Part shown: positions 11,353 through 33,317 of the stretch, piece after piece
Layout of the letters: each line of letters starts with the position of its first letter
Numbering within the stretch: position 1 is the first letter of the stretch
Assembly: GCA_028876395.1 (NCBI GenBank)
Contig: JAGWRX010000190.1
Coordinates: 1-45,633 of the forward strand
Direction: 5' to 3'
DNA length: 45,633 nt
Source of the DNA: Acidobacteriota bacterium
Lineage (GTDB): Bacteria; Acidobacteriota; Terriglobia; Terriglobales; Acidobacteriaceae
Notes under the pieces: generated by a model
Told to the model about the DNA's origin: nothing
Database searches by the model: none
Seen by the model: the letters and a program-made list of their open reading frames with translations, nothing else
Program-made: the position numbers and the translations under genes

Positions 11353-12750
11353 CTATTTATTGTTATTGCCAAGAGCATATTTGGATACCTTGTAACCCAA
11401 ATCGCTGCGCGAAAGGTTCAGGTGCCTGGCTGCCTCAGCCTGCACGCCTCCCGTTGCGACGAGCGCCCGCTCGATCAAAGCAATTTCAATCTGTCCCAGG
11501 ACATCCCGAAGGTCGAGATGCTGTGGCAGGCGTTGTGCAAGCTGTGCGGCGCTCAGGTCTGTTTCCGCCGCAGGTCCGTTCACTGGCGCAGTGTTCAACG
11601 GAAAATCTTCAGGCTGCAACTCGGGTTGCTGTCCCAGAATATGAGCACGTTCCAGCAGGTTGCGCAGCTCTCTGATGTTGCCGGGGAAATGATATTGGCT
11701 CAGTTTGGCGATCGCAGCCTGACTTAGTGGCCGCTGACTCACCTTCATATCCTGGGCGATTCTCGCCGACAGAATGTTACAGAGTCCTGCAATATCTTCG
11801 CGTCGCTCGCGCAAGGGCGGCAGGTGGATGGGCAAGACCGCGAGCCGGTAGTACAAGTCCTCCCGGAACAGCCCTTCCTGCACACGCTCCTTGAGATTGC
11901 GGTGCGTAGCAGCCAGGACCCGCACATCGACGTGCCGTACCTTTGTGGATCCCACGCGCTGAATCTCGCCGTCGGCCAGGAACCTGAGCAATTTTGCCTG
12001 GGCTGCAGGAGACAATTCCGCAACTTCGTCCAGGAAGAGTGTGCCTTCGTGCGCCGCCTCAAACAGCCCGGTCTTCATCTTATCCGCGCCGGTGAAGGAG
12101 CCCCGCTCATGCCCAAACAGCTCGCTCTCAATCAGAGATTCAGCAACCGAGGCGCAGTTGATGGCGACGAATGGCTTGCTCGCTCTCAGGCTGTTCTCAT
12201 GGATGGCTCTGGCAACGAGTTCTTTGCCGGTTCCGGTCTCACCTGTAATCAGAACCGTCGTATCCTTCGGCGCAACGCGGGCAATGGTCTCTCGGATAGC
12301 CCGAATGTTCGCGCACTCTCCAAAAATCTCATCCGGGCCTTTTAGTTTCAGCACCGCCGATTTGAGCACGGCGTTTTCGCGTAACAACGCCGTACGCTCG
12401 CAGGCACGTCTTACCGCTGCCTTTACCGCATCCGGGACAAATGGCTTGGTCAGGAAGTCGAAGGCGCCTTCCCGCATGCTTGCAACTGCAAGCTCCAGCG
12501 TGCCCACAGCAGTAAGGAAAATGACTGAAGCCGTTGGATCGTCCTGCCGGACTGCATGCAGAACGTCGAGTCCGCTGCCGTCGCCCATTTTTTGATCGGT
12601 GATAACAACGTCGAAATCCTCGTTGGCCAGGATGGACTTGGCGTTCAGCACACCCGACGCCTCGACGACTACATGAGAATCCATTTGCAGGTTGGTCGAC
12701 AGGATACGCCGCATGCTCGGTTCATCGTCGACGATCAGCACTTTGCCCAT
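11353..12750 (-). CDS. NtrC-family sigma-54-dependent response regulator
   Basis: 465-aa transcription activator. The receiver (1-120) has the acidic pocket DDE (8-10), phosphoacceptor Asp52 in VVITDQKM and Lys102. The AAA+ domain has Walker A GETGTGKE (170-177), the sigma-54 contact loop GSFTGA (217-222, an Ala-to-Ser variant of GAFTGA) and Walker B GTLFLDE. The C-terminal Fis-type helix-turn-helix lies near 425-458 (VQAEAARHLNLSRSDL). It should couple ATP hydrolysis to open-complex formation on RpoN promoters. It is the last gene of the rubrerythrin/DUF2231/kinase operon, 3 bp after the kinase. Palindrome pairs before this operon and before the gene at 10501 are its likely targets. Confidence 0.93.
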   Translation of the reverse strand: MGKVLIVDDEPSMRRILSTNLQMDSHVVVEASGVLNAKSILANEDFDVVITDQKMGDGSGLDVLHAVRQDDPTASVIFLTAVGTLELAVASMREGAFDFLTKPFVPDAVKAAVRRACERTALLRENAVLKSAVLKLKGPDEIFGECANIRAIRETIARVAPKDTTVLITGETGTGKELVARAIHENSLRASKPFVAINCASVAESLIESELFGHERGSFTGADKMKTGLFEAAHEGTLFLDEVAELSPAAQAKLLRFLADGEIQRVGSTKVRHVDVRVLAATHRNLKERVQEGLFREDLYYRLAVLPIHLPPLRERREDIAGLCNILSARIAQDMKVSQRPLSQAAIAKLSQYHFPGNIRELRNLLERAHILGQQPELQPEDFPLNTAPVNGPAAETDLSAAQLAQRLPQHLDLRDVLGQIEIALIERALVATGGVQAEAARHLNLSRSDLGYKVSKYALGNNNK

Positions 12751-12753
12751 GTG

Positions 12754-14121
12754 CTACTCCTTCTCTTTTCCCTCATGCAGAAGAGCAGAGAGTGTCATGG
12801 AGAAGACGACACGCCCCTCTTGGTTGCAACTGACCCAGAGATCTCCGCCGTGTGCCTGCGCAACGCGGCGCGCGATTGCAAGTCCAAGGCCTGTGCCATT
12901 CGGCTTTGTACTGTAGAATGGTTCAAAAATGTGGGGCAAATCTGAGTCTGGAATGGGCGCGCCGCTGTTCATGATGTTGATCTGCACAAGCGGCCCGGAG
13001 CGAGAGGCATCCAGGGACACCTGACCTGATGCACTGGTTGCCTCAATGCCGTTCAGCACGAGATTCAGGAGCGCCCCTTGTACCTGCGCGGAATCCGCTT
13101 CGATCCGGACCTCCTCCGTCAGGGAAAGAGCTACTGCCACGGATCTGCTTTCGGCGTGGGCCTTGACCACGTCAGCGGTATAAGAAAGCAGGTCACCCAG
13201 GAAGACGGGGCAGCGCTGCGGGGCGGAAGGGCGAGCATAATTAAGAAATTCAGAGGTCAGGCGCGCAAGCCTCTCAGCCTCTTTTGCCGCGATCTGCAAC
13301 ATCTCCTCGCGATCAGCGGGTCCCACGATGGGGTTGGATGCCGTGGCAAGAGAGCTGGAAATCATAGCGACCGGGTTGCGAATCTCGTGAGCGATGTTTC
13401 CGGCAAGCCTGCCAACAGCTGCCAGCTTTTCTTCAACGATGAGCTGTTCCCGAGTAGCCTCCAGCTTAGCCATGTTCTCTGAGAGCCTGGCCTGCTGTCG
13501 CTTAAGCTGAGTCACCAGGAACCACACCAAAAATCCCATCAGGCTGAAAATAACCGAAAGCATTCCGGCTTCAAGGTACTCAGACGCCAGCGGCGGAGGA
13601 TGAACCTGAAAGTAGTGGTGCATCCAGAAGAAGATCACTCCCGTTGCGCCGGCGATCGTAATGGTCGTGGGAACGAGGCCGAAATGATACGCCGCCTGAA
13701 GGATAGGGATGGCCAGCAATACGAAATAAGGAGCATCGTCACGGTCTGTAAGGAAGATGAGTATGATCGCCAGGAGGAATAGTCCCGCGATGGAGAGCGC
13801 CGTTTCAACGCGCAATGTTCCCTCTGTGATTCCACCAGTCTGCCCCTGCAGCCAGATCAACTCCACGACTTTCAGAAAAAAGCTGAAACCAAGGAGCGCG
13901 ATTACCCATCTTGACGGCGTGCCCAACAGGGAGGCAAAGAGCGTATGAAGCAGGAGGAGGATTGCAATTACAAAGAGCGTGAGAACGCAGAAGGCCGTCT
14001 GCTGCTTCTTGAATGACTCCTGCTCCAATAACCTGCGTGAAGGGACATTCACCGTCGTCATGCCGCGCACAGCACCCTTCCCGGAGCCTGTCTCAAACAT
14101 CGCCAGGTCGCGCTTGCTCAA
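12754..14121 (-). CDS. Membrane sensor histidine kinase with six N-terminal helices
   Basis: 455-aa kinase. About six membrane helices fill residues 43-207, in the manner of PilS-type sensors, with very little periplasmic sequence, so the signal is probably sensed within the membrane or through a partner. A short coiled linker leads to the HisKA domain with the phosphorylated His245 in NIAHEIRNPV. The HATPase domain follows, with its N box (NLVLNGIEA) and GTGLGLAIAR. Partner of the NtrC-type regulator 3 bp downstream. A TTG at 14121 is chosen because AAGGA lies 8-9 nt upstream; ATGs at 14100 and 14061 lack this. The DUF2231 gene ends 4 bp before it. Confidence 0.92.
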   Translation of the reverse strand: MSKRDLAMFETGSGKGAVRGMTTVNVPSRRLLEQESFKKQQTAFCVLTLFVIAILLLLHTLFASLLGTPSRWVIALLGFSFFLKVVELIWLQGQTGGITEGTLRVETALSIAGLFLLAIILIFLTDRDDAPYFVLLAIPILQAAYHFGLVPTTITIAGATGVIFFWMHHYFQVHPPPLASEYLEAGMLSVIFSLMGFLVWFLVTQLKRQQARLSENMAKLEATREQLIVEEKLAAVGRLAGNIAHEIRNPVAMISSSLATASNPIVGPADREEMLQIAAKEAERLARLTSEFLNYARPSAPQRCPVFLGDLLSYTADVVKAHAESRSVAVALSLTEEVRIEADSAQVQGALLNLVLNGIEATSASGQVSLDASRSGPLVQINIMNSGAPIPDSDLPHIFEPFYSTKPNGTGLGLAIARRVAQAHGGDLWVSCNQEGRVVFSMTLSALLHEGKEKE

Positions 14122-18698: not shown

Positions 18699-19076
18699 TC
18701 AGCGCAGACCGGTGTGCAGGTAAGCCAGCAGCGCCGCCATCTGCTCGTCGTTGAAGCGCCCGGCAAACGACGGCATCATCCCCTTGCCCGAGAGCACCAC
18801 ACGGCGCACCCCTTCGTCCGTAGCAGGAGCGCCGCTGGGCAGCGTACGGCCGGCAAAGACCTCATGCAGGTTTGGCGGCACCTTTTTGAGTGCCAGGTCG
18901 TTGTCTTCGTGGCAGTGCGCGCAGCGACCCAGGTAGAGATGCTTCCCCGCCGCCTCCTGATCGGTGAGGGCGGGCACGGAGCGGCAGCCGGCGAGCCAGC
19001 CGATGCACGCTGCCAGCGTGACAAGGGATAGCGCCCACGCGAACTGACGCCTGATCTGTGGCGACTCGTCAGGCAT
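18699..19076 (-). CDS. Lipoprotein c-type cytochrome, single haem
   Basis: 125-aa cytochrome c. The N-terminal hydrophobic segment ends in a lipobox (LAGC, Cys31), so it is probably lipid-anchored on the periplasmic side. The haem motif is CAHCH (Cys52, Cys55, His56), with a likely axial Met in GKGMMPSF and the usual C-terminal helix ([14 protein letters not shown]). Its start overlaps the end of the superoxide dismutase gene by 8 bp, so the two are translationally coupled. A joint role handling electrons or superoxide outside the cytoplasm is inferred from that coupling. Confidence 0.9.
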
Positions 19077-19800
19077 TCGCCTTCCGGGCGAACTGGCCGC
19101 TCACATAATCCCAGTTGAGCACCTGGAAAAACGCCTTCAGATAATCGGCGCGGCGGTTCTGGTACTTCAGATAGTAGGCGTGTTCCCACACATCTACGCC
19201 CAGCACCGGTGTGTGACCCAGGGTGAGCGGGCTGTCCTGGTTCGGTGAAGTTTCGATCGCCACGGTCCCATCTGGCAGTTTGACCAGCCAGGCCCAGCCG
19301 CTGCCGAAGACGCTCATGGCCGCGGCAGTCAGCTTGCCCTGAAAGGCATCGAGCGAACCGAACTTTACATCGATGGCCTTGGCCAACTCGCCCTTCGGCG
19401 CCGCGCCGCCCTTGCCCAGCGTTGGCCACCAGAAGGAGTGGTTCGCATGCCCCCCGCCGTTGTTGCGGACGGCGGTTCGGATGCCCTCCGGCAACGCGCC
19501 CAGGTTCGAAATCAGATTATCAACAGTCTTCCCCGCCAGCTCAGGGTGACCGGCAACGGCAGCATTCAGGTTGTTCACGTAGGCCTGGTGGTGTTTGTCG
19601 TGGTGCAGGTGCATGGTTTCAGCGTCGAAGCTGGGCTCCAGAGCGTCGTAGGAGTACGGCAGAGGAGGCAGCGTGAACGGTCCAGCGGGTGGTGCGGTCG
19701 CGGCCGCCTGACCCGAACCTTCGCCGCGCAGGGCTTCAGTCAACAGCAACGCGCTTGCCACACCGCCAATGCTCTTCATTGCAGTTCGCCTGTCCATCAT
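19069..19800 (-). CDS. sodA: Superoxide dismutase (Fe/Mn family), predicted exported by Tat
   Basis: 243-aa dismutase converting superoxide to peroxide and oxygen. Metal ligands by alignment with known family positions are His66 (LHHDKHH), His121 (GHANHSFWW), Asp203 and His207 ([10 protein letters not shown]). Gln188 in the NQDSPL segment favours the Mn type, though a cambialistic enzyme is possible. A leader precedes the domain: [13 protein letters not shown] followed by a hydrophobic stretch resembles a twin-arginine signal. The ATG at 19800 has GGAGG about 10 nt upstream; 19797 is an adjacent alternative. The next gene, a lipoprotein cytochrome c, overlaps its stop. Confidence 0.93.
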
Positions 19801-19872
19801 GGTTCCGGTACCTCCATGTCTTCGATGCGCAACGGCACAGAAAGTCTGCGTGGATGCGGATGAGTGCATCAA

Positions 19873-19878
19873 ATTATA
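19873..19878 (-). promoter_or_regulatory. Candidate -10 box for the superoxide dismutase operon
   Basis: Minus-strand TATAAT lies 73 bp before the start codon in the 140-bp divergent region with the thioesterase gene. A TTGGTC 19 bp upstream is a weak -35. No further operator is evident. Confidence 0.35.
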
Positions 19879-19942
19879 GTGATTCGAGCAGCGGGACGAC
19901 CAATCGAGTCCATCTGGCAACTGCGTTCAGTATCCTGAAACC

Positions 19943-20437
19943 ATGACGGCAAGCGACGAAAAACTGACGCCCCTGGCCCACGCGGCCCAGAACCGCTGTT
20001 TCGGCTGTGGCCCCGCCAACCCCGGTGGGCTGCACCTCGAATTCCTGCTTGCCGCGGACGGCACGGTGGTTTGCCCGGCTACGATTCCGGCCGAATTCGA
20101 AGGGCACCCCGGCTACCTGCATGGCGGCATTATTGCCACCCTGCTGGATGAAACCATGAGCAAGGCGGTGCGCGCTCGCGGCTTGACCGCCATGACCCGC
20201 CACATGGAAGTTGACTACCGGCGTCCGGTCCCCAGCGGAGTGCCCGTTCGCATGGAGGGCCGTGTAGTTCGCGACGAAGGTCGCAAGCACTGGGCGGAGG
20301 CCTGGATTCTCGACGCGGAAGGAGTCGCCCTGGCACATGGCAAGGGGCTGTTCGTTGAGGTCCGGCCCCGTAGCGCAGGCGGAAGTGAAGAGCAAGGCAC
20401 ACCGCGGCAAGCGCTGCATGCGCGCTCGCCGCGGTAG
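19943..20437 (+). CDS. PaaI-type hotdog thioesterase
   Basis: 164-aa protein of the hotdog acyl-CoA thioesterase superfamily. It has the frequent N-terminal signature CFGCGPANPGGL (about residues 19-30), the core motif GYLHGGIIATLLDETM with the active-site HGG and acidic residue, and the strand TRHMEVDYRRPVP. The physiological acyl-CoA is unknown. The last 25 residues are hydrophilic and probably disordered. The ribosome site is weak (CTGAAACC). It is divergent from superoxide dismutase and convergent with flgE, 26 bp between stops. Confidence 0.85.
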   Translation: MTASDEKLTPLAHAAQNRCFGCGPANPGGLHLEFLLAADGTVVCPATIPAEFEGHPGYLHGGIIATLLDETMSKAVRARGLTAMTRHMEVDYRRPVPSGVPVRMEGRVVRDEGRKHWAEAWILDAEGVALAHGKGLFVEVRPRSAGGSEEQGTPRQALHARSPR

Positions 20438-20463
20438 CTTTTCCCCGCCTGGATTCAATCGGC

Positions 20464-21741
20464 TCAGTGGATCATGTTGATCGTTTCCTGCGTCACTGTG
20501 TCGAACGTAGTTATGGTTTTGGAATTCGCCTCAAATGCACGCTGCGCGATAATCAGGTTGGAGAACTCGGACGAGATGTTGACGTTTGACTCCTCCAGCG
20601 CTCCGTCCTGCAGCGTCCCCAGGCCGGCTGTTCCTGAGGTGCTGATGGATGCAGCGCCGCTGGCCATCGTGGTCGCGTAGTCGCCGCCTCCCAGCATCCG
20701 CATCCCCTGTACATTGGTCACATTGGCAAGCGCCAATTGCCCCACGGCCAGTTGCTGCCCGTTGGAGAAGGTCGCGGAAACAGTCCCGTCCGAGCTGATC
20801 GTGAAGCTCTGATACTGGCCGCTGTCGTAGCCATTCTGCGTGGTCGCGCTCGTCGCGGACGTGGCATCCACCTGGCTGATCGTGGGTGTTCCGCTCGTGC
20901 CCAGAAGGTTCCATTGCATATTCAGATTGGCGGAGCCGTCGGCCAATCCCGTAAAGCTGAGCGGAATGGAAGAGATGTCGCCCGGCGCGGTTCCCACCGG
21001 GGTCGCCGCTCCGCCGGTCGGTGTTATCGTGCTCAGGTTGCCACTGGAGTCAAAATTCATGGTTCCGGTCACGGGCGTCGAGATGCCCGAAGTGAAATCC
21101 GCAGCCGGCAACGCAACCGAGTAGCTCCACGTGTTCGTGCCCGTCTTGGTGTAGGTCACCGTCGCCACATGGCTCACGCCCAGCGAGTCATAGATCGTGA
21201 TCTGCGCAGGAAAAGTCGTGCCCGTTGCCGATGTGGCGTTCAGGTTTGCGGTCATGTTCATGGTCGTGGTGGCCTTAGGCGGTTCCACCTGGCCCACGGG
21301 AATGCTTATCTGCGTGAGTGGCGAGTTGGTATTGACCACGCCGTTGACCGCCGGGTAGCCCATCACGCCCAGCCCATTCTGAGTGATCAGGTTGCCGCTG
21401 GAATCAAGCGAGAAGTTGCCGGCGCGCGTGTACTCGTTCACGCCGTTGTTATTCACCACAAAAAAGCCATTGCCGTCCAGCGCCACATCGGTGGCTGTGC
21501 CGGTGGCGTTGATGGAGCCTTGCGTGAAGTTGGTCGCAATCGCAGCCACCTGAGTGCCTGCGCCAACCTGAATCGGGTCACCCGAGCCGGCTGCGCCAAT
21601 CTGCTGATAGAACAGGTCAGAGAAATTCGCGGTCTGTCCCTTGAATGCAGTCGTGTTCATGTTCGACAGATTGTTGGCAATGGTGTTCAGGGCCGTCGAA
21701 TCGGATTCCAGGCCGGTGAGCGGAATAAAGAAGCTAGCCAT
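20464..21741 (-). CDS. flgE: Flagellar hook protein FlgE
   Basis: Structural subunit of the flagellar hook, exported by the flagellar type III apparatus. The 425 residues have the N-terminal rod/hook signature (TGLESDSTALNTIANNLSNMNTTAFKG, given here in outline as residues 9-34), a Ser/Thr/Gly-rich surface-exposed middle and the conserved C-terminal amphipathic helix ending SKTITTFDTVTQETINMI. Hook length is normal. GAGGAG lies 8 nt before the ATG. It is the last gene of the flagellar cluster in this window, 96 bp after flgD, and faces the thioesterase gene. Confidence 0.95.
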   Translation of the reverse strand: MASFFIPLTGLESDSTALNTIANNLSNMNTTAFKGQTANFSDLFYQQIGAAGSGDPIQVGAGTQVAAIATNFTQGSINATGTATDVALDGNGFFVVNNNGVNEYTRAGNFSLDSSGNLITQNGLGVMGYPAVNGVVNTNSPLTQISIPVGQVEPPKATTTMNMTANLNATSATGTTFPAQITIYDSLGVSHVATVTYTKTGTNTWSYSVALPAADFTSGISTPVTGTMNFDSSGNLSTITPTGGAATPVGTAPGDISSIPLSFTGLADGSANLNMQWNLLGTSGTPTISQVDATSATSATTQNGYDSGQYQSFTISSDGTVSATFSNGQQLAVGQLALANVTNVQGMRMLGGGDYATTMASGAASISTSGTAGLGTLQDGALEESNVNISSEFSNLIIAQRAFEANSKTITTFDTVTQETINMIH

Positions 21742-21837
21742 CGTGGTTCTCCTCTTGGTGTCTCCAAACGTTGGGGCGGGCCGATGCGGCCGGTTGTTGA
21801 GAGCAACCTGGCGGGCGACCGCAGGCTGCCGGTTGGT

Positions 21838-22374
21838 CTAAGCAGTGCCGGCTGTACCACCCAGTGACCGGGCCACGCGCTCTGCGGCAGGATTAGCTTC
21901 AGGGACGCTGAGATTTCCGGGTGCAAACCGGGCAGCCGGGCCATGCGATAGAATCCCGGACAACCCCGGTGGCGCTGAGGAGCCTTCTGCAGCGCCACGT
22001 GCCTGGGGAGCCGCTCCCATGCCGCTCACGTTCTCAGCGGAAGCGCCCGTGCCCTGACTCACGCCGCCACTCGCTGTGGTTCCGCTGCCTGAACCCGCCG
22101 CGGTGGAAAGTGTCTGGTTAATGGAAATCAACTGCTCCAGGCTGTTTACGTTGACAAGCTGGTTGATGTATTCGTTTGGATCGGTGTTTGCCGTCGGATC
22201 CTGATTCTGCATCTCCGTCACCAGCAGCGTGAGAAAGTCGTTGGCCGAGATGGTTGCCGCATTTGTGCTGGAACTGCTGCCTGTATTGCTGGTTGAGCTG
22301 CTCATGGGCGAAGCGCCCTTCAGTGCATGCGCTGCCGATGGTGGATGACTCCACAGCCCTGTTATCGCCGTCAT
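21838..22374 (-). CDS. flgD: Flagellar hook capping protein FlgD
   Basis: Scaffold protein that caps the growing hook. The conserved part is residues 40-90 (ANDFLTLLVTEMQNQDP, then EYINQLVNVNSLEQL). After it comes an Ala/Gly/Ser-rich tail of about 85 residues with no sign of the usual C-terminal beta-domain. At 178 aa it is short compared with the usual 220 or so. AAGGAGG lies 5 nt before the ATG. It is between fliK and flgE, the usual neighbours of a hook operon. Confidence 0.88.
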   Translation of the reverse strand: MTAITGLWSHPPSAAHALKGASPMSSSTSNTGSSSSTNAATISANDFLTLLVTEMQNQDPTANTDPNEYINQLVNVNSLEQLISINQTLSTAAGSGSGTTASGGVSQGTGASAENVSGMGAAPQARGAAEGSSAPPGLSGILSHGPAARFAPGNLSVPEANPAAERVARSLGGTAGTA

Positions 22375-22455
22375 TTCCCCTCCTTGTTCAGCCTTCGCTT
22401 CAATCCCTTATGCGCCGATGCTTCTGACGTCCGGCAATCTATCTATTCCTCGTCC

Positions 22456-24234
22456 TCAGGCCATCACTGAGATATAAGCGCCCCCCGGCATGGTTCCCGC
22501 TGACGGCGCATCTGTTCGGCCCGCGGTCATTGCGCCATGGGACTGGCTTGCCGGCACAGCTGCGGATGCGCTGGAACGCGCGTCCGCCTCCTGTCCGGAA
22601 TGCCCACCCTGCCCCGCATTCTGCCCGGCGTCCTGGCCCATTCCCTGCCCGGCCCACTGGCTCTCCTGTGCTGCCAGCGTCAGTGTTGCCACCGGCGTGT
22701 GACGCTCCGCCAGATGTGCGTTCAATCCCGCGAGGTGCGTGCCGAGAGACTGCGCCGCATCTGCAGAACCCGGGACAAGCGCCGCATGAATCCCATTCGC
22801 GTCGGTCTGCGCGCGTACCGCCACCCAGCCAAGCGCAGGATCCTTGAAGCCCGCTTCCGCATGATGTGGGCTGGCATGAATCCACGTGGGCGCACTCGTG
22901 CTGACGGCCGCATCGAGCGACGCAAAGGTCTCGCGGACGGCCGAAGGATCCGCAGTGGCAGAGGGCGAGCTTGCATTGGTTTCTCCGCGCTCCTTTGCGT
23001 CGCCTGCAAAGTTCGTTGCTGAAGCATCGCGGGCCGCCATCGTTGCCGGTTGCATCTGCGCAACAACGCTTGCCTGGCTTGCAACAGGATGCGCCGCTTG
23101 CGCGGCCTGCATATGAAGCGCATTCGCGCTCCAATGAGATTCCGCTGATTTGGCCGTAACGCCCCTGGCGCCGGGTGCTGCCTTTCCGTCGGTCTCCACC
23201 GGAACCGAGATGCCTGAAGCTTCGCGGTGCGGATTTGGAGGCACAATGCCGGAAGCTGGGTGATCGGCTGTTTGTCCTCGCAGAGCTTGCGCCGCGACAA
23301 CGCTGTCCGCCGGTGCGGGCGCATGATAAGAGGCCTGCGATGCCCCCATTGAAGTTCCCGCTTGTACGCTGGACTCTTCGGTTGGTTCCTTGCCTGCGCT
23401 GATCGCCTGCGCTTCAGGACCGATGGACGGTGCTTCAATTGCCTGATCGAACGCAGGATCGGGAGCGCGCTTCGTCTGCGCTGGCGCGCTATTCGTGGCG
23501 GTCGGTGCTGGGACACTTCTCGTGCCGGTCAAAGTGGCCATCTCGGTTTGAATTGAGAAAGCGTGTAAACCCGGACGCGAAGAATGAATCGCGGACCTCA
23601 CCGTCAGCTCTGTGGCGCTTTGGGCCGGCGGGTGCACAGGATGTGCAGGCACGGGCACGATAATGTCCATGAGTGGCGACAGCTGGGCAGCCGTCGCTTC
23701 CGCAGGCTTCGCAGGATGCGGCTCTCGTTTTGCATGCATCCGCACATGCGCTGTCTGCGCATCCCTGGTGGATGCCGTGGTGCCTGCCTTCAGCGCATTG
23801 ATTATGGGCTGGCCGGGCGCTTGCGCCGGGGCCCTCTCCGGCCTGACAGCAGGCTGCGCATCGGCGCTGAGCGGGTGTGTCGAATCTGTTCTTGCGGTGA
23901 CTTGGCTCTCAGCCTGCTGCGGCCTAACCGTCGGCGGCAGGTTGGTGTCGTTCCTGGGCGCGCCGGCAACACTCGCTCTGCGCTGCGCCTGGGCTCCGTC
24001 AGTCGATGCGGGCTCCGCCTTGGCACTTGCCTCAGCGCCGTCTTCAGGTATGCCTGCAGCGGCCAGAATCGACCGCCAGCTCGAACCGAATCCCTGCGCT
24101 GCTCCCTGCGATGACTGCGGCATGCCTGTCGTCGATCTGGCGCCGCGGCCGAGACCACGCATCACGCCGGATGTTGTCCCTGCCACGGCGCCCGGTCCTG
24201 CGGATGCGAACTTGGTCACTGCGGAGGCAGTCAT
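22456..24234 (-). CDS. fliK: Flagellar hook-length control protein FliK
   Basis: 592-aa protein that measures hook length and switches export specificity. Most of it is low-complexity Ala/Pro/Gln/Ser sequence, as is usual for FliK. The identifying part is near the C-terminus, from LGWVAVRAQTDANGIHAALV through HLAERHTPVATLTLAAQ, then a Gly/Gln-rich tail. The ATG at 24234 has no ribosome site, but the predicted sigma-54 start falls about 2 nt upstream, so the message may be leaderless; ATG 24162 is an alternative. Identification rests on position between fliJ and flgD plus the C-terminal domain. Confidence 0.8.
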   Translation of the reverse strand: MTASAVTKFASAGPGAVAGTTSGVMRGLGRGARSTTGMPQSSQGAAQGFGSSWRSILAAAGIPEDGAEASAKAEPASTDGAQAQRRASVAGAPRNDTNLPPTVRPQQAESQVTARTDSTHPLSADAQPAVRPERAPAQAPGQPIINALKAGTTASTRDAQTAHVRMHAKREPHPAKPAEATAAQLSPLMDIIVPVPAHPVHPPAQSATELTVRSAIHSSRPGLHAFSIQTEMATLTGTRSVPAPTATNSAPAQTKRAPDPAFDQAIEAPSIGPEAQAISAGKEPTEESSVQAGTSMGASQASYHAPAPADSVVAAQALRGQTADHPASGIVPPNPHREASGISVPVETDGKAAPGARGVTAKSAESHWSANALHMQAAQAAHPVASQASVVAQMQPATMAARDASATNFAGDAKERGETNASSPSATADPSAVRETFASLDAAVSTSAPTWIHASPHHAEAGFKDPALGWVAVRAQTDANGIHAALVPGSADAAQSLGTHLAGLNAHLAERHTPVATLTLAAQESQWAGQGMGQDAGQNAGQGGHSGQEADARSSASAAVPASQSHGAMTAGRTDAPSAGTMPGGAYISVMA

Positions 24235-24246
24235 GCGACGAGTTAA

Positions 24247-24262
24247 TGCAGATGGCGTGCCA
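24247..24262 (-). promoter_or_regulatory. Sigma-54 (-24/-12) promoter before fliK
   Basis: On the minus strand TGGCACGCCATCTGCA matches TGGCACG-N4-TTGCA with a single change (CTGCA for TTGCA). It lies in the 121-bp gap between fliJ and fliK. The predicted start, near 24236, is almost at the fliK ATG. A sigma-54 activator is encoded in the same cluster. Confidence 0.72.
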
Positions 24263-24355
24263 AAGGTTGCGAAAGCGGATTAGAGGATTGTCACGAATGG
24301 GCCCGGCGGTGCCCGAATTCAAAAGGCCGACCCGAATGTGCAACAGCACAATCTC

Positions 24356-24883
24356 TCAATCGTCTGCGGGAGCAGATTCATCTCCGCGGTCGGCGGGTAG
24401 CGATCGGCCGGACGCGCGCTCCGCATCCACATTTGGCCTTGCCTTGCTTTCCGCCGGAAACGAACGCGAGCGGTGCCAGTCATCCAGTGCCTGTTGCCCG
24501 CGGCGCTTCGCTTCGATTGCATCCGTCGCCTCTCTCGTCTCGATCAGAGTTTCAGCCTGGAGACGCTCCACACGCCGTATGAGAAAACTCTGCCGCAGCC
24601 TCTCCGCTTCCTGTTCCGCGGCGTTTCTTCTCTCTTCGAGCGCAGCGCCCAGCCTCAATGCAGCGCGCGACTCTTCCAGGCCCGCAAGCCTGTCGGGCAG
24701 CTCGCCGCTCTGTGCGCTGAATGACACCAACTGCCGGCCCTGCCGGTCGCGCCCGGCCGTCTCCGTAAGAGCCTGCTCCAGGCTGCTCAGCTCTCCGACC
24801 GCAGATTCGAGAGCGAGTCTGCTTTGTTCCTCTTCCAGTTCGCGGATACGAAGCAGGCGGCGTAACGCTGGCGAAACGGGCAT
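24356..24883 (-). CDS. fliJ: FliJ-like flagellar export chaperone
   Basis: 175-aa, highly charged coiled-coil protein, starting MPVSPALRRLLRIRELEEEQ, with heptad-like Leu/Ala spacing to about residue 140 and a disordered acidic tail. FliJ proteins assist the FliI ATPase and recycle chaperones in the flagellar export apparatus. Sequence conservation in the family is low, so the call depends on length, coiled coil and position 3 bp after fliI. A gap of 121 bp with a sigma-54 promoter separates it from fliK. Confidence 0.8.
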   Translation of the reverse strand: MPVSPALRRLLRIRELEEEQSRLALESAVGELSSLEQALTETAGRDRQGRQLVSFSAQSGELPDRLAGLEESRAALRLGAALEERRNAAEQEAERLRQSFLIRRVERLQAETLIETREATDAIEAKRRGQQALDDWHRSRSFPAESKARPNVDAERASGRSLPADRGDESAPADD

Positions 24884-24886
24884 CGC

Positions 24887-26200
24887 TCAAACCTCCGCCG
24901 ACAAAGCCGCCAGCCGATTGCGGCAGTCTGCCAGCGTGAGGCGTTCGCCGGCATCCTGCGTCAGAAAGGCGCGCATTGAGCCGCGCGCCCGCAATGCCCG
25001 GTCCAGATCCGGGTCGGCGCCGGGCTTGTAGGCGCCGATGCGCACCAGATCCTCCGAGCGCGCGTAGACGGCCATCAGCCTGCGCAGCAACGCTGCCTGT
25101 TCACGGTGCTGCGGGTCGGTGACGGCTGGCATCAGACGACTGATCGAGTCCAGCACCTGCACCGGCGGATACCAGCCTTCGGCAGCCAGAGCGCGGGAGA
25201 GCACCACGTGCCCGTCAAGAAGCGAGCGCACTGCATCCACCAGAGGGTCCTGCTGGTCGTCTCCCTCCATCAGCACGGTGTAGAAGGCAGTAATCGAGCC
25301 CATCTTGAACTGCCCTGTCCGCTCAACAAGCCGTGCCAGGCGGGTGAAAACCGAAGGCGTGTAGCCTTTGGCCGTGGGCGGTTCTCCGGCGGCCAGGCCA
25401 ATCTCCCGCGCGGCCATGGCAAAACGCGTCAACGAGTCCAGCACCAGCAGCACATGCTTCCCTTCCGCGGCAAAGTACTCGGCAACCGTGGTGGCCGCGA
25501 GCGCGGCCCGCATGCGCATCAGCGGCGACTGGTCAGAGGTTGAAACCAGCACCACCGAGCGCGCGCGGCCTTCCACGCCAAGCGAATCCTCAAGAAATTC
25601 GCCCACTTCGCGGCCGCGTTCTCCCACCAGCCCGACAACGGTCACATCGGCTTCCGTGTTGCGTGTCATCATGCCGATCAGTGTGCTCTTGCCCACACCC
25701 GAACCGCCGAAGATACCCACGCGCTGCCCGCGGCCCACGGTCAGAAGCCCGTCCAGCGCGCGGATGCCAGTACCCAGGGGCGTGCGAATGGGCACGCGGT
25801 CCAGCGGCGAGCGCACGGCTCCGTCCAGCTGCATCGCGTGCGCCAGAGCCGTGGGCCGGCCTCCATCGATTGGCTGGCCCGCGGCATTCAGCACCCTGCC
25901 CATCAGCGCCGGGCCCACCTCGATCTCCGGGTGCAATCCCAGCGCGGCAACCGCGTCTCCATAGCGAATGCCTTCCGTAGTTTCAAGAGGCATCGAAAGA
26001 ACGTTCGAACCGCGAAAGCCAATCACCTCCGCCATGTGTGCATTCCCAAAACGATCCAGAATCTCGCAGCACTCGCCGACGGAAGCCAGAGGCCCGGTCG
26101 ATTCGATGGTCTGCCCGACGGATTCGATGACCTGTCCCCGCCAGCGCCACGGCTGTGTGCGCTGCAACCGCGCGCGATAGCGGCCCAGAAGGGGCGTCAA
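24887..26200 (-). CDS. fliI: Flagellar export ATPase FliI
   Basis: 437-aa hexameric ATPase energising flagellar protein export, homologous to F1-beta. Walker A is GGSGVGKST (165-173, Lys171) and Walker B is KHVLLVLDSLTR. The signatures GLVGERGREVGEF and the arginine-containing C-terminal region are present. An F1-like N-terminal barrel precedes them. Its ATG overlaps the fliH stop by 4 bp (26197-26200), indicating translational coupling. Confidence 0.95.
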   Translation of the reverse strand: MTPLLGRYRARLQRTQPWRWRGQVIESVGQTIESTGPLASVGECCEILDRFGNAHMAEVIGFRGSNVLSMPLETTEGIRYGDAVAALGLHPEIEVGPALMGRVLNAAGQPIDGGRPTALAHAMQLDGAVRSPLDRVPIRTPLGTGIRALDGLLTVGRGQRVGIFGGSGVGKSTLIGMMTRNTEADVTVVGLVGERGREVGEFLEDSLGVEGRARSVVLVSTSDQSPLMRMRAALAATTVAEYFAAEGKHVLLVLDSLTRFAMAAREIGLAAGEPPTAKGYTPSVFTRLARLVERTGQFKMGSITAFYTVLMEGDDQQDPLVDAVRSLLDGHVVLSRALAAEGWYPPVQVLDSISRLMPAVTDPQHREQAALLRRLMAVYARSEDLVRIGAYKPGADPDLDRALRARGSMRAFLTQDAGERLTLADCRNRLAALSAEV

Positions 26201-31155: not shown

Positions 31156-32457
31156 TCAGTTCACCGTCAGACCAAAATCGATATCCTGTGATGTCAGTAC
31201 GGGCGCATCGCCGGCCAGGATCGCAGCCCGTTCCAGCACATGCTCGAGCTCGCGCACGTTGCCCGGCCAGGGATGCGCTGCCAGCTTGGCCAGTGCCGCC
31301 GCGTCGATCCGCTTCACCGGGGCATCGCGGCCCATGCGTTCCAGAAAGTGATGCACCAGCAGCGGCAGATCGTCGGCGTGCTCGGCCAGCGCCGGGGTGC
31401 GAATGAGGAAGACGGCCAGCCGATAGTAAAGATCGGCGCGGAATGTCCCCGTCTGGGTGTGCTGCGCCAGCGGCCGGTGCGTTGCGGCTACAATCCGCAC
31501 ATCCACCTTCAACGTCTCGTTGTCGCCCACCCGCTGCAGCTCGCCGCTCTCCACGAAACGCAGCAGCTTGGACTGCAGCGCCAGCGGCATTTCGCCAATC
31601 TCATCCAGAAACAGCGTCCCGCCATTGGCAGCCTCAATGCGCCCTACGCGACCCTGCACCGCGCCGGTAAAAGCTCCGCGCGTGTGGCCGAACAGCTCGG
31701 CTTCGAGCAGCGCCTCGGGAATTGCAGCGCAGTTGATGGCTACAAATGGCTTGCGGCTGCGCAGAGAGAGGCGATGCAATGCTTCAGCTACAAGCTCCTT
31801 GCCTGATCCAGTCGGACCCTCAACCAGCACGGGAGTCGAGCGCGGCGCCACGAGACGGATGCGGCGGCTGACCTCCAGCATGCAGGGCGCATCGCCCACC
31901 AGCTCCGGAAGGCGCTCGTTCGCCGTGTTCGCTTTGCCGCCGCCGGAATGTTCTCCGGCCGGCGTCGCGGCAGCAGGCTTCTCCAGCGTCTGCGCAGAAT
32001 GCGATGAATCTGAAATTACCTCAATGTGCCCATGCCGGGTCACGCCGCCATCCTCCGGCAGCACGGGAGCGGAATTCCAGGCGGCGGTATCGCTGTCCTG
32101 GCTGCGGCGAAGGGCATAGAGCAGCTCCTGGCGATGTGGTCCGCGCGGGCTTTCATGAGCGGCCGTTCCGTCGGCGCTGAGCAGGTCCACATCAGGAAAA
32201 GACGTCCTGAAATCCCTCAGAAACTCGCCATGATCGAGATCGGGAAGCCAGGAATCGACGATGACCGCTGCAGGGGCCGCGGCAGACGCTTCAGCCCAGA
32301 CTGCCGCGCCGCCTTCGGCCTCGCGAACCTGCCAGCGCAGGCCGGTGAGAATCTCGTTGATCCGCTGGCGGAAGCTGCGATCGGCGCTGACCACCAGCGC
32401 GGTGCGTGACCGCATGCGCGGGGTTGCGGGAAGAACTGGACCCGGAAAGGCTTGCAT
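31156..32457 (-). CDS. Sigma-54 activator lacking a DNA-binding domain (FlgR-like)
   Basis: 433-aa flagellar sigma-54 activator. The N-terminal receiver-like domain (18-120) is atypical, with VVSADRS instead of an acidic pair but a possible phosphoacceptor Asp68 in VIVDSWLPD. A Ser/Ala/Gly-rich linker follows to about residue 180. The AAA+ domain has Walker A GPTGSGKE (214-221), the canonical GAFTGA (261-266), Walker B TLFLDE and the lid motif WPGNVREL. It stops 13 residues after LTSQDID, so the Fis-type helix-turn-helix is absent. The usual LRERxxDI is altered to ALAEHADDL. ATG 32457 follows AAGGAGAA. H. pylori FlgR is a known activator of this DNA-binding-free design. Confidence 0.88.
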   Translation of the reverse strand: MQAFPGPVLPATPRMRSRTALVVSADRSFRQRINEILTGLRWQVREAEGGAAVWAEASAAAPAAVIVDSWLPDLDHGEFLRDFRTSFPDVDLLSADGTAAHESPRGPHRQELLYALRRSQDSDTAAWNSAPVLPEDGGVTRHGHIEVISDSSHSAQTLEKPAAATPAGEHSGGGKANTANERLPELVGDAPCMLEVSRRIRLVAPRSTPVLVEGPTGSGKELVAEALHRLSLRSRKPFVAINCAAIPEALLEAELFGHTRGAFTGAVQGRVGRIEAANGGTLFLDEIGEMPLALQSKLLRFVESGELQRVGDNETLKVDVRIVAATHRPLAQHTQTGTFRADLYYRLAVFLIRTPALAEHADDLPLLVHHFLERMGRDAPVKRIDAAALAKLAAHPWPGNVRELEHVLERAAILAGDAPVLTSQDIDFGLTVN

Positions 32458-32501
32458 AGCAATTCTCCTTCGATTCGGGCGATGCGCATCGTGCGGCGCG
32501 T

Positions 32502-33254
32502 TCACTGCGCTTCAACAACTGAACTGACGGATTGCTTTGCGACGGTCGCTGCGGCATGGGCTGGGTCCATTGGCGCCAACAGCGTCCCTTCAGCCGGAAC
32601 CATGTAGCCCTGGCCACGTACTGTCCGGATCAGTCGTCCCGGAGGTGGATCCTTGAGTTTGCGGCGCAGGTAATTCACATACACGTCCACGATGTTGGTG
32701 GTCTGTGCCGGTTCCATGTTCCAGACCGAATCCAGCAGTTCGACCCGCGAGACGCAGTGGCCGCGGTTGAGCATCAGGTGCTCCAGAAGTGCAAACTCCT
32801 TGTTGGTAAACTCGATGTGTTCGCCAGCGCGAATAGCCGCGTGGTCCAACCGGTTCAACTCCAGCTCGCCGGCGCGCAACAGCAGGCGGGCTTCGCGCTT
32901 GCGCCGCAGGAGCGCGCGGCAGCGGGCGCGCAGTTCATACAGGCTGAAAGGCTTCACCATCAGGTCATCGGCTCCGCGGTCCAGGCAGCGCACCCGGGTC
33001 TCCACCTCCTGCCGCCCAGTCAGCACCAGCACGGGCAGATCGGCGTCCATGACGCGCAGCTCGTCGAGCACCTGCTCCCCATCCTTGATCGGCATATTCA
33101 GATCGAGAATCGTCAGGTCAGGCATCTCCTCGCGAAAAGCCTCAACCGCGGCGGCACCGTCATGCGCCAGGCGGACGCGATGCCCATCGGCCTCCAGCCC
33201 GCGGCTCAGGAACAGGCCCAGCGCCTTGTCGTCTTCGGCAATCAGCAATCTCAT
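32502..33254 (-). CDS. OmpR/PhoB-type response regulator heading the flagellar cluster
   Basis: 250-aa regulator. The receiver has the acidic residues EDD (7-9), phosphoacceptor Asp51 in LTILDLNMP, and the switch Thr and Lys in VLVLTGR and MVKPFSLYEL. The C-terminal winged-helix domain (about 125-225) shows the family pattern LTNKEFALLEHLM-like FTNKEFALLEHLM, VDVYVNYLRRKL and IRTVRGQGYM. No kinase is adjacent. It is the first gene of the minus-strand run, 44 bp before the sigma-54 activator, so it probably controls flagellar expression. GAAAGG precedes the ATG at 33254; an upstream ATG at 33269 is also in frame. An Ala-rich tail follows the wing. Confidence 0.92.
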   Translation of the reverse strand: MRLLIAEDDKALGLFLSRGLEADGHRVRLAHDGAAAVEAFREEMPDLTILDLNMPIKDGEQVLDELRVMDADLPVLVLTGRQEVETRVRCLDRGADDLMVKPFSLYELRARCRALLRRKREARLLLRAGELELNRLDHAAIRAGEHIEFTNKEFALLEHLMLNRGHCVSRVELLDSVWNMEPAQTTNIVDVYVNYLRRKLKDPPPGRLIRTVRGQGYMVPAEGTLLAPMDPAHAAATVAKQSVSSVVEAQ

Positions 33255-33317
33255 GGCAGCCTTTCTCATGCGGCGGAATCCGCGGATTGAACGCTCCGCT
33301 GCCAACCCCGCCCGCCG

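Follow-up and report, generated by a model that had tools for sequence, protein, structure and literature searches.

The leaderless mRNAs of Campylobacter jejuni follow sigma-70 boxes (available sections of PMC3847290), and in three acidobacteria 9.7-19.4% of genes have been predicted to be leaderless from TANNNT-like boxes, in an in-silico survey that finds only genes with such boxes and names single leaderless genes with other sigma factors, for example whiH (available sections of PMC3160421). As far as those sections go, surveys resting mainly on sigma-70 -10 boxes (PMC3847290, PMC3160421) would miss a sigma-54 promoter at a fixed distance from the start codon. Leaderless and sigma-54 starts are both treated in PMC3616915, PMC5243855, PMC4287350, and PMC12403871; the available sections of these papers describe no leaderless flagellar gene expressed from a sigma-54 promoter, although their tables may hold single cases. 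None of the papers found for Acidobacteria, flagella, and sigma54 treats such a device at fliK, to judge by its title.

Both in Vibrio and in Helicobacter, fliK itself belongs to the RpoN-dependent class. The fliK gene of an Acidobacteriota bacterium, analyzed here in a 45,633-nucleotide stretch of DNA (contig JAGWRX010000190.1, hereafter the window), compares with the closest described systems as follows: i) like the leaderless mRNAs that follow a sigma-70 -10 box, it has a start codon at or near the predicted +1, no Shine-Dalgarno sequence, and a box at a fixed short distance (PMC3847290 and PMC3160421, in the sections available), but unlike those of C. jejuni its box is a sigma-54 -24/-12 element; ii) like the middle flagellar genes of Helicobacter, Campylobacter, and Vibrio, which combine sigma-54 with a dedicated flagellar activator (available sections of PMC9696931), it has both a sigma-54 site and a candidate activator in the cluster, but here the site recurs widely only at fliK and the message is predicted to be near-leaderless; and iii) like H. 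pylori FlgR, which the same sections describe as an NtrC-type, enhancer-independent protein without a C-terminal DNA-binding domain, the activator here lacks a DNA-binding domain, but unlike FlgR it adjoins an OmpR-type regulator, and an element upstream of the promoter is conserved, at fliK alone in the loci scanned. A sigma-54 promoter at a selected distance from the start codon would tie strict control by an RpoN activator to leaderless translation, a simple device by which the Acidobacteriaceae could time the hook-length ruler.

A sigma-54 site in the gap before fliK

The closest named records to the window are Acidobacteriaceae, Terracidiphilus sp. MAGs included. Pfam matches, together with a weak NCBIfam match for fliJ and, for fliK, a weak Pfam match backed by synteny, give the gene order fliF, fliG, fliH, fliI, fliJ, gap, fliK, flgD, flgE. 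By ORF ends the gap spans 24235-24355 (121 bp); it is the largest of the cluster, rather than the only sizeable one as the original prediction held, since ORF coordinates also leave 81 bp between fliK and flgD and 96 bp between flgD and flgE. The minus-strand letters TGGCACGCCATCTGCA at 24262-24247 do lie one base off TGGCACG-N4-TTGCA, and contain GG-N10-GC at -24/-12 in a TGGCAC/TGC context, as expected of a sigma-54-dependent promoter; the genome encodes an RpoN (Sigma54_DBD, 191.8 bits). With the -12 C at 24248, the usual geometry of sigma-54 promoters predicts a start at 24236 and hence a leader of 2 bases before the fliK ATG at 24234-24232, just as had been proposed (Table 1).

Table 1. 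Features of the fliK region and of the linked regulators, in window coordinates
Feature	Position	Strand	Basis and remarks
Sigma-54 (-24/-12) promoter core, TGGCACG-N4-CTGCA	24247..24262	minus	letters TGGCACGCCATCTGCA; congener alignment
Predicted transcription start (+1)	24236	minus	12 bases past the -12 C (24248); from sigma-54 geometry
Spacer, -12 element to ATG	24235..24246	minus	length kept at 11-13, letters mostly not; without Shine-Dalgarno core
Conserved upstream element, CCCATTCGTGACAATCCTCTAATCC	24277..24301	minus	about -65 to -41; 25 bp; TGAC/TAAY half-sites 11 bp apart
fliK, 592 aa, start ATG 24234	22456..24234	minus	Pfam Flg_hook E 0.00095 (under cut-off); flanked by fliJ and flgD; codon periodicity begins at codon 2
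fliJ, upstream neighbor	24356..24883	minus	NCBIfam TIGR02473 E 0.00029, below cut-off; synteny
flgD, downstream, possibly same transcript as fliK	21838..22374	minus	Pfam FlgD
flgE, downstream, possibly same transcript as fliK	20464..21741	minus	Pfam FlgE_D2
Sigma-54 activator, candidate for fliK	31156..32505	minus	GAFTGA, AAA+; ends after lid
OmpR/PhoB-type response regulator	32502..33305	minus	Response_reg + Trans_reg_C; adjoins activator

A sequence of the window's composition should contain 0.64 one-mismatch matches to the consensus, and 53 of 100 shuffles have at least one, so the motif by itself proves nothing; the narrower TGGCACGN5TGCA, a pattern picked post hoc with the site already known, is expected 0.09 times and is present in 8 of 100 shuffles. 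Two points also count against our preferred explanation: TGGCACN6TGCW is not enriched genome-wide (16 occurrences versus 16 for the reversed control), and our scoring weights derive from a general consensus. What rules out chance is the conservation of the promoter site across congener loci.

Conservation and fixed spacing among congeners

A FliI search of 99 relatives led to 63 genomes from which loci were taken, including 46 congener loci with fliJ (the window among them); 45 remained after omission of one whose contig stops short of the promoter (L092). The site in each gap was the best-scoring one from -10 to +260 of the fliJ stop, except in L072, where we took the fliK-proximal site by hand because a higher-scoring one lies further down. 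Best scores reach at least 12 bits in 40 of the 45 gaps and 6.4-10.9 in the other 5; TGG and the -12 TG are present in every locus, the -12 C in 44, and the two T's ahead of TGG in 38 and 40. Part of this core conservation reflects selection of sites on score, which favors those very letters; this and the 5 low-scoring gaps count against our preferred explanation.

Spacing, by contrast with the site, was no selection criterion. A long frame, of 150 codons or running on to the contig end, starts 27-29 bases past the first T of the site in 44 of the 45 congener loci: at 28 in 38 loci (37 ATG, 1 GTG), at 29 in 5 (4 ATG, 1 GTG), and at 27 in one (ATG). Meanwhile the distance from fliJ to the site ranges from 28 to 221 bases, and the 12 bases between site and ATG are highly variable, the last two excepted; a constant length despite drifting letters is what selection on the distance between transcription start and AUG would be expected to produce. 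The base at the predicted +1 offset is a purine in 38 of the 45 loci (31 G, 7 A). Promoter conservation before fliK in relatives had been proposed as a check, and with site and start so placed in 44 of 45 loci the case for a sigma-54 promoter of fliK's own gains sequence support.

The sole exception to the spacing rule, L063, does have an ATG at 28, which opens a frame of at least 56 codons (by eye) that stops short of the FliK match and was left out of the 44; in this single-contig genome (5950-6170, minus strand) the frame from the conserved ATG misses the C-terminal FliK match. In the nearest relative (L072, 92-93% FliI identity; 6181-6166, minus strand) the -12 region reads TGTA rather than TGCA, with the upstream element, the spacing, and the ATG all kept. 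Both departures count against our preferred explanation.

The arrangement appears peculiar to fliK. Among the matches listed in a pattern search of the 99 genomes, 15 lie at fliK with offsets of 28 (13 matches), 29, and 31, and a spacing of 27-29 is unenriched at the other sites listed (13 of 135, versus 13.5 expected if even); we therefore rejected a general habit of near-leaderless sigma-54 genes, since no spacing peak appears beyond fliK among these matches. Scores of at least 15 in the 45 loci (739,735 bases, both strands) mark the fliK promoter in 34 loci and 20 places elsewhere, 3 of them inside fliG; no other cluster position reaches that score in more than 4 of the 45. Sigma-54 control of flagellin was also tried and rejected: an AAGGAG-like stretch precedes the start in 7 of 19 flagellin loci, with no site scoring 12 or more (best 11.3), and the remaining 12 were uninformative because their strand is opposite to that assumed.

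The fliK start codon

A Shine-Dalgarno core (GGAG, GAGG, or AGGA at -16 to -4) precedes only 1 of 44 congener fliK starts, so that the lack of a ribosome site first noticed in the window, and expected of a leaderless mRNA, is general among congeners. For orthologues whose match begins at residue 1 or 2, the same core precedes 39/39 flgE, 13/15 flgD, 19/26 fliG, 21/27 fliI, and 16/23 fliJ starts; the median anti-Shine-Dalgarno pairing energy is -1.6 kcal/mol for fliK versus -6.6 to -10.2 kcal/mol for the other genes, a range that leaves out a single fliF start without a core. The fliK start codon is ATG in 42 of the 44 loci and GTG in 2, consistent with the AUG preference of leaderless messages.

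FliK evolves very fast (window 22456-24234; 42% identity to the nearest relative, versus 92-93% for FliI); its N-terminus here is MTASAVTKFA, and the usual congener form is M-T-V/A-A-x-x-I-E-I-G. Counted from 24234, codons 2-10 differ pairwise by 0.45, 0.51, and 0.65 at positions 1, 2, and 3 (permutation p = 0.00075), and by codons 17-25 this periodicity is gone (0.67, 0.70, 0.70). Such coding constraint makes 24234 the likely start and 24162 not: the conserved codons lie upstream of ATG 24162, which the original prediction had offered as an alternative start and which we regard as very unlikely. The other half of that proposal, a leaderless or near-leaderless message translated from ATG 24234, is supported at the sequence level by the fixed spacing, the missing Shine-Dalgarno core, and coding from 24234.

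A conserved element upstream of the promoter

Anchored alignment reveals a conserved element ahead of the sigma-54 site with the consensus CCCATTC(C/G)TGACAAT-N-(C/T)TCTAACCC, whose CTCTAACCC part, sought only 16-27 bases from TGG, starts 23 or 24 bases ahead of TGG in 44 of the 45 loci and 22 bases ahead in the remaining one. Searched with a matrix for the element, both strands of the 739,735 bases give scores of at least 14 at fliK, in 41 of the 45 loci, and at no other place; having been built from the same sites, the matrix matches fliK by construction, and absence elsewhere is the test. The four loci it misses (L059, L080, L090, L093) count against our preferred explanation. Half-sites spaced about 11 bp apart resemble those of OmpR-type regulators, and the OmpR-type regulator of the cluster is a candidate to bind the element.

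Several other readings of the element were rejected. As part of a wider regulon or a general flagellar signal, the element and site together are no commoner than a reversed control in 60 genomes; no sigma-70-type promoter was found at 19000-24900; a sigma-28 reading was dismissed by eye; and fliJ coding fails as an explanation, the element being kept where fliJ ends about 60 bases earlier. In some loci its TGA or TAA is the fliJ stop (by eye).

Activator, regulators, and transcription of the cluster

The candidate activator of fliK has the AAA+ domain and GAFTGA motif of sigma-54 activators, and a profile search of the window proteins found in it no HTH_8 match and no DNA-binding domain. Its congener counterparts end 172-182 residues past the start of GAFTGA in 33 of 35 loci with a match, the other 2 being unreadable; a short end and no Fis-type HTH are the marks of a FlgR-like activator. 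Regulator and activator form a pair (31156-33305, minus strand) with a 4-base overlap, upstream of flgB. Of 20 further genomes in the family, 18 have such a pair no more than about 10 kb from fliI; at the thresholds used, 6 genomes outside the class showed no linked pair. Elsewhere in the window (11353-14121, minus strand), a histidine kinase and a complete NtrC-type activator with HTH constitute another candidate sigma-54 partner.

No terminator-like site turned up on the minus strand in a simple scan of 19000-24900. Transcripts begun upstream of fliJ may therefore continue into fliK and give a leadered read-through message there, a point we count against our preferred explanation. That fliK, flgD, and flgE form a separate RpoN-dependent transcription class, as originally predicted, is plausible but unproven.

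Range across relatives

A census by one rule took in 210 loci, of which 39 were marked duplicate and 5 were too short; the duplicate test missed L262 (= L253) and L266 (= L258), and L265 resembles L255, none of these falling within the 75 loci that combine a strong site with a start at 25-31, all of which differ in sequence around the site. The 75 comprise 43 of 46 congener loci, 10 of 24 from second flagellar systems or other families of the class, 19 of 40 named loci (duplicates and short loci removed), and 3 of 20 from a family sample that overlaps the named set by 2 or 3 genomes. For 13 of these 20 loci, the site is followed by a start at 32-79. In Edaphobacter lichenicola (L252, L253) and Granulicella sp. 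L60 (L259), too, CTAAT and the site are kept while the start has moved to 51-52, and Granulicella sp. S190 (L255) keeps CTAAT and a site (by eye). In Occallatibacter savannae AB23 (L256), a cultured soil relative, the start is at 28. We found no strong site in an Edaphobacter MAG (L250), two Granulicella MAGs (L249, L254), L233, and other named loci, and this lack in several Edaphobacter, Granulicella, and other named loci counts against our preferred explanation. Elsewhere in the phylum 1 of 39 loci has a strong site, none combines a strong site with a near start, and one with a weak site has a near start.

Mapped on a 106-row FliI tree, the near-leaderless state requires 9 changes versus 29.8 in shuffles, and is found in 56 rows of one 59-row clade and in 7 of 8 rows of the second-system clade. 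This tree was built quickly, and 39 of its 103 inner branches were drawn open; its labels treat L072 as lacking a site on account of TGTA, and a by-eye reassignment of L222 and L255 applies to the tree alone. Within the same genus, a second and divergent flagellar system likewise shows a start 27-28 bases past a sigma-54 site (L034, L035, L038, L040, L041, L042, L044); 6 of these 7 starts are GTG, which is unusual for leaderless genes and counts against the AUG preference, and in L040 and L041 an in-frame ATG follows at 39. By sequence comparison, then, most congeners keep the promoter-start unit together with its upstream element, and near-leaderless spacing is seen again in the second flagellar system.

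Mechanism and alternative explanations

We consider it highly probable that the site is a real RpoN promoter giving rise to a near-leaderless fliK message, and that the activator is probably the cluster's own, without a DNA-binding domain. RNA polymerase carrying RpoN would start at about 24236 and produce an mRNA beginning 5'-GC-AUG, with a leader of about two bases (0-3); the HTH-less activator (31156-32505) would open this polymerase at fliK, and the upstream element would recruit a second regulator. With so short a leader and no Shine-Dalgarno sequence, ribosomes would have to use the leaderless route at ATG 24234, and if selection holds the distance from promoter to ATG, promoter and start codon would constitute one unit. 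A further step, which we put forward tentatively and are inclined to doubt, is a translation gate: read-through from fliJ, lacking a Shine-Dalgarno sequence, might yield little FliK, and only the near-leaderless message made by RpoN might be translated. Were this so, the hook-length ruler would be made only once the sigma-54 checkpoint opens, and ribosome choice would add a second layer of control.

The foremost alternative, unlikely though deserving consideration, accepts the sigma-54 promoter but has transcription start 10-20 bases further up, or fliK read mainly off a long fliJ message, in either case as a leadered mRNA without a Shine-Dalgarno sequence. Leadered genes of this kind are translated in many bacteria, and the minus strand lacks a terminator-like site from fliJ to fliK; against it stand the fixed length from promoter to ATG despite drifting letters, which it would not explain, and the SD-like sequence that several relatives with a more distant start appear to show (by eye). 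Much less probable is a sigma-54 match that is fortuitous or vestigial, the conserved block serving some other factor, as its binding site or as an RNA feature. The one-mismatch matches in 53 of 100 shuffled windows and the loss of the -12 C in the nearest relative (L072) speak for this view, but GG and GC are rightly spaced in 44 of 45 loci with T's ahead of TGG (38 and 40 of 45), and in 7 of the 8 rows that form the second-system clade a similar site precedes fliK of that divergent flagellar system. Hardly credible, finally, is translation of FliK from ATG 24162 on a leadered message: such a start would account for the lack of a ribosome site at 24234 and for the weak coding periodicity past codon 16, but codons 2-10 from 24234 are under coding constraint, the start codon ahead of them persists in 44 of 45 loci, and further start codons are differently placed among relatives.

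A gene downstream of flgE

Immediately after flgE, window 19874-20458 (minus strand) encodes a 194-aa protein without a Pfam or NCBIfam match at 0.001. The protein occurs in many congener clusters at 30-57% identity, and its frame overlaps that of a superoxide dismutase (19069-19920).
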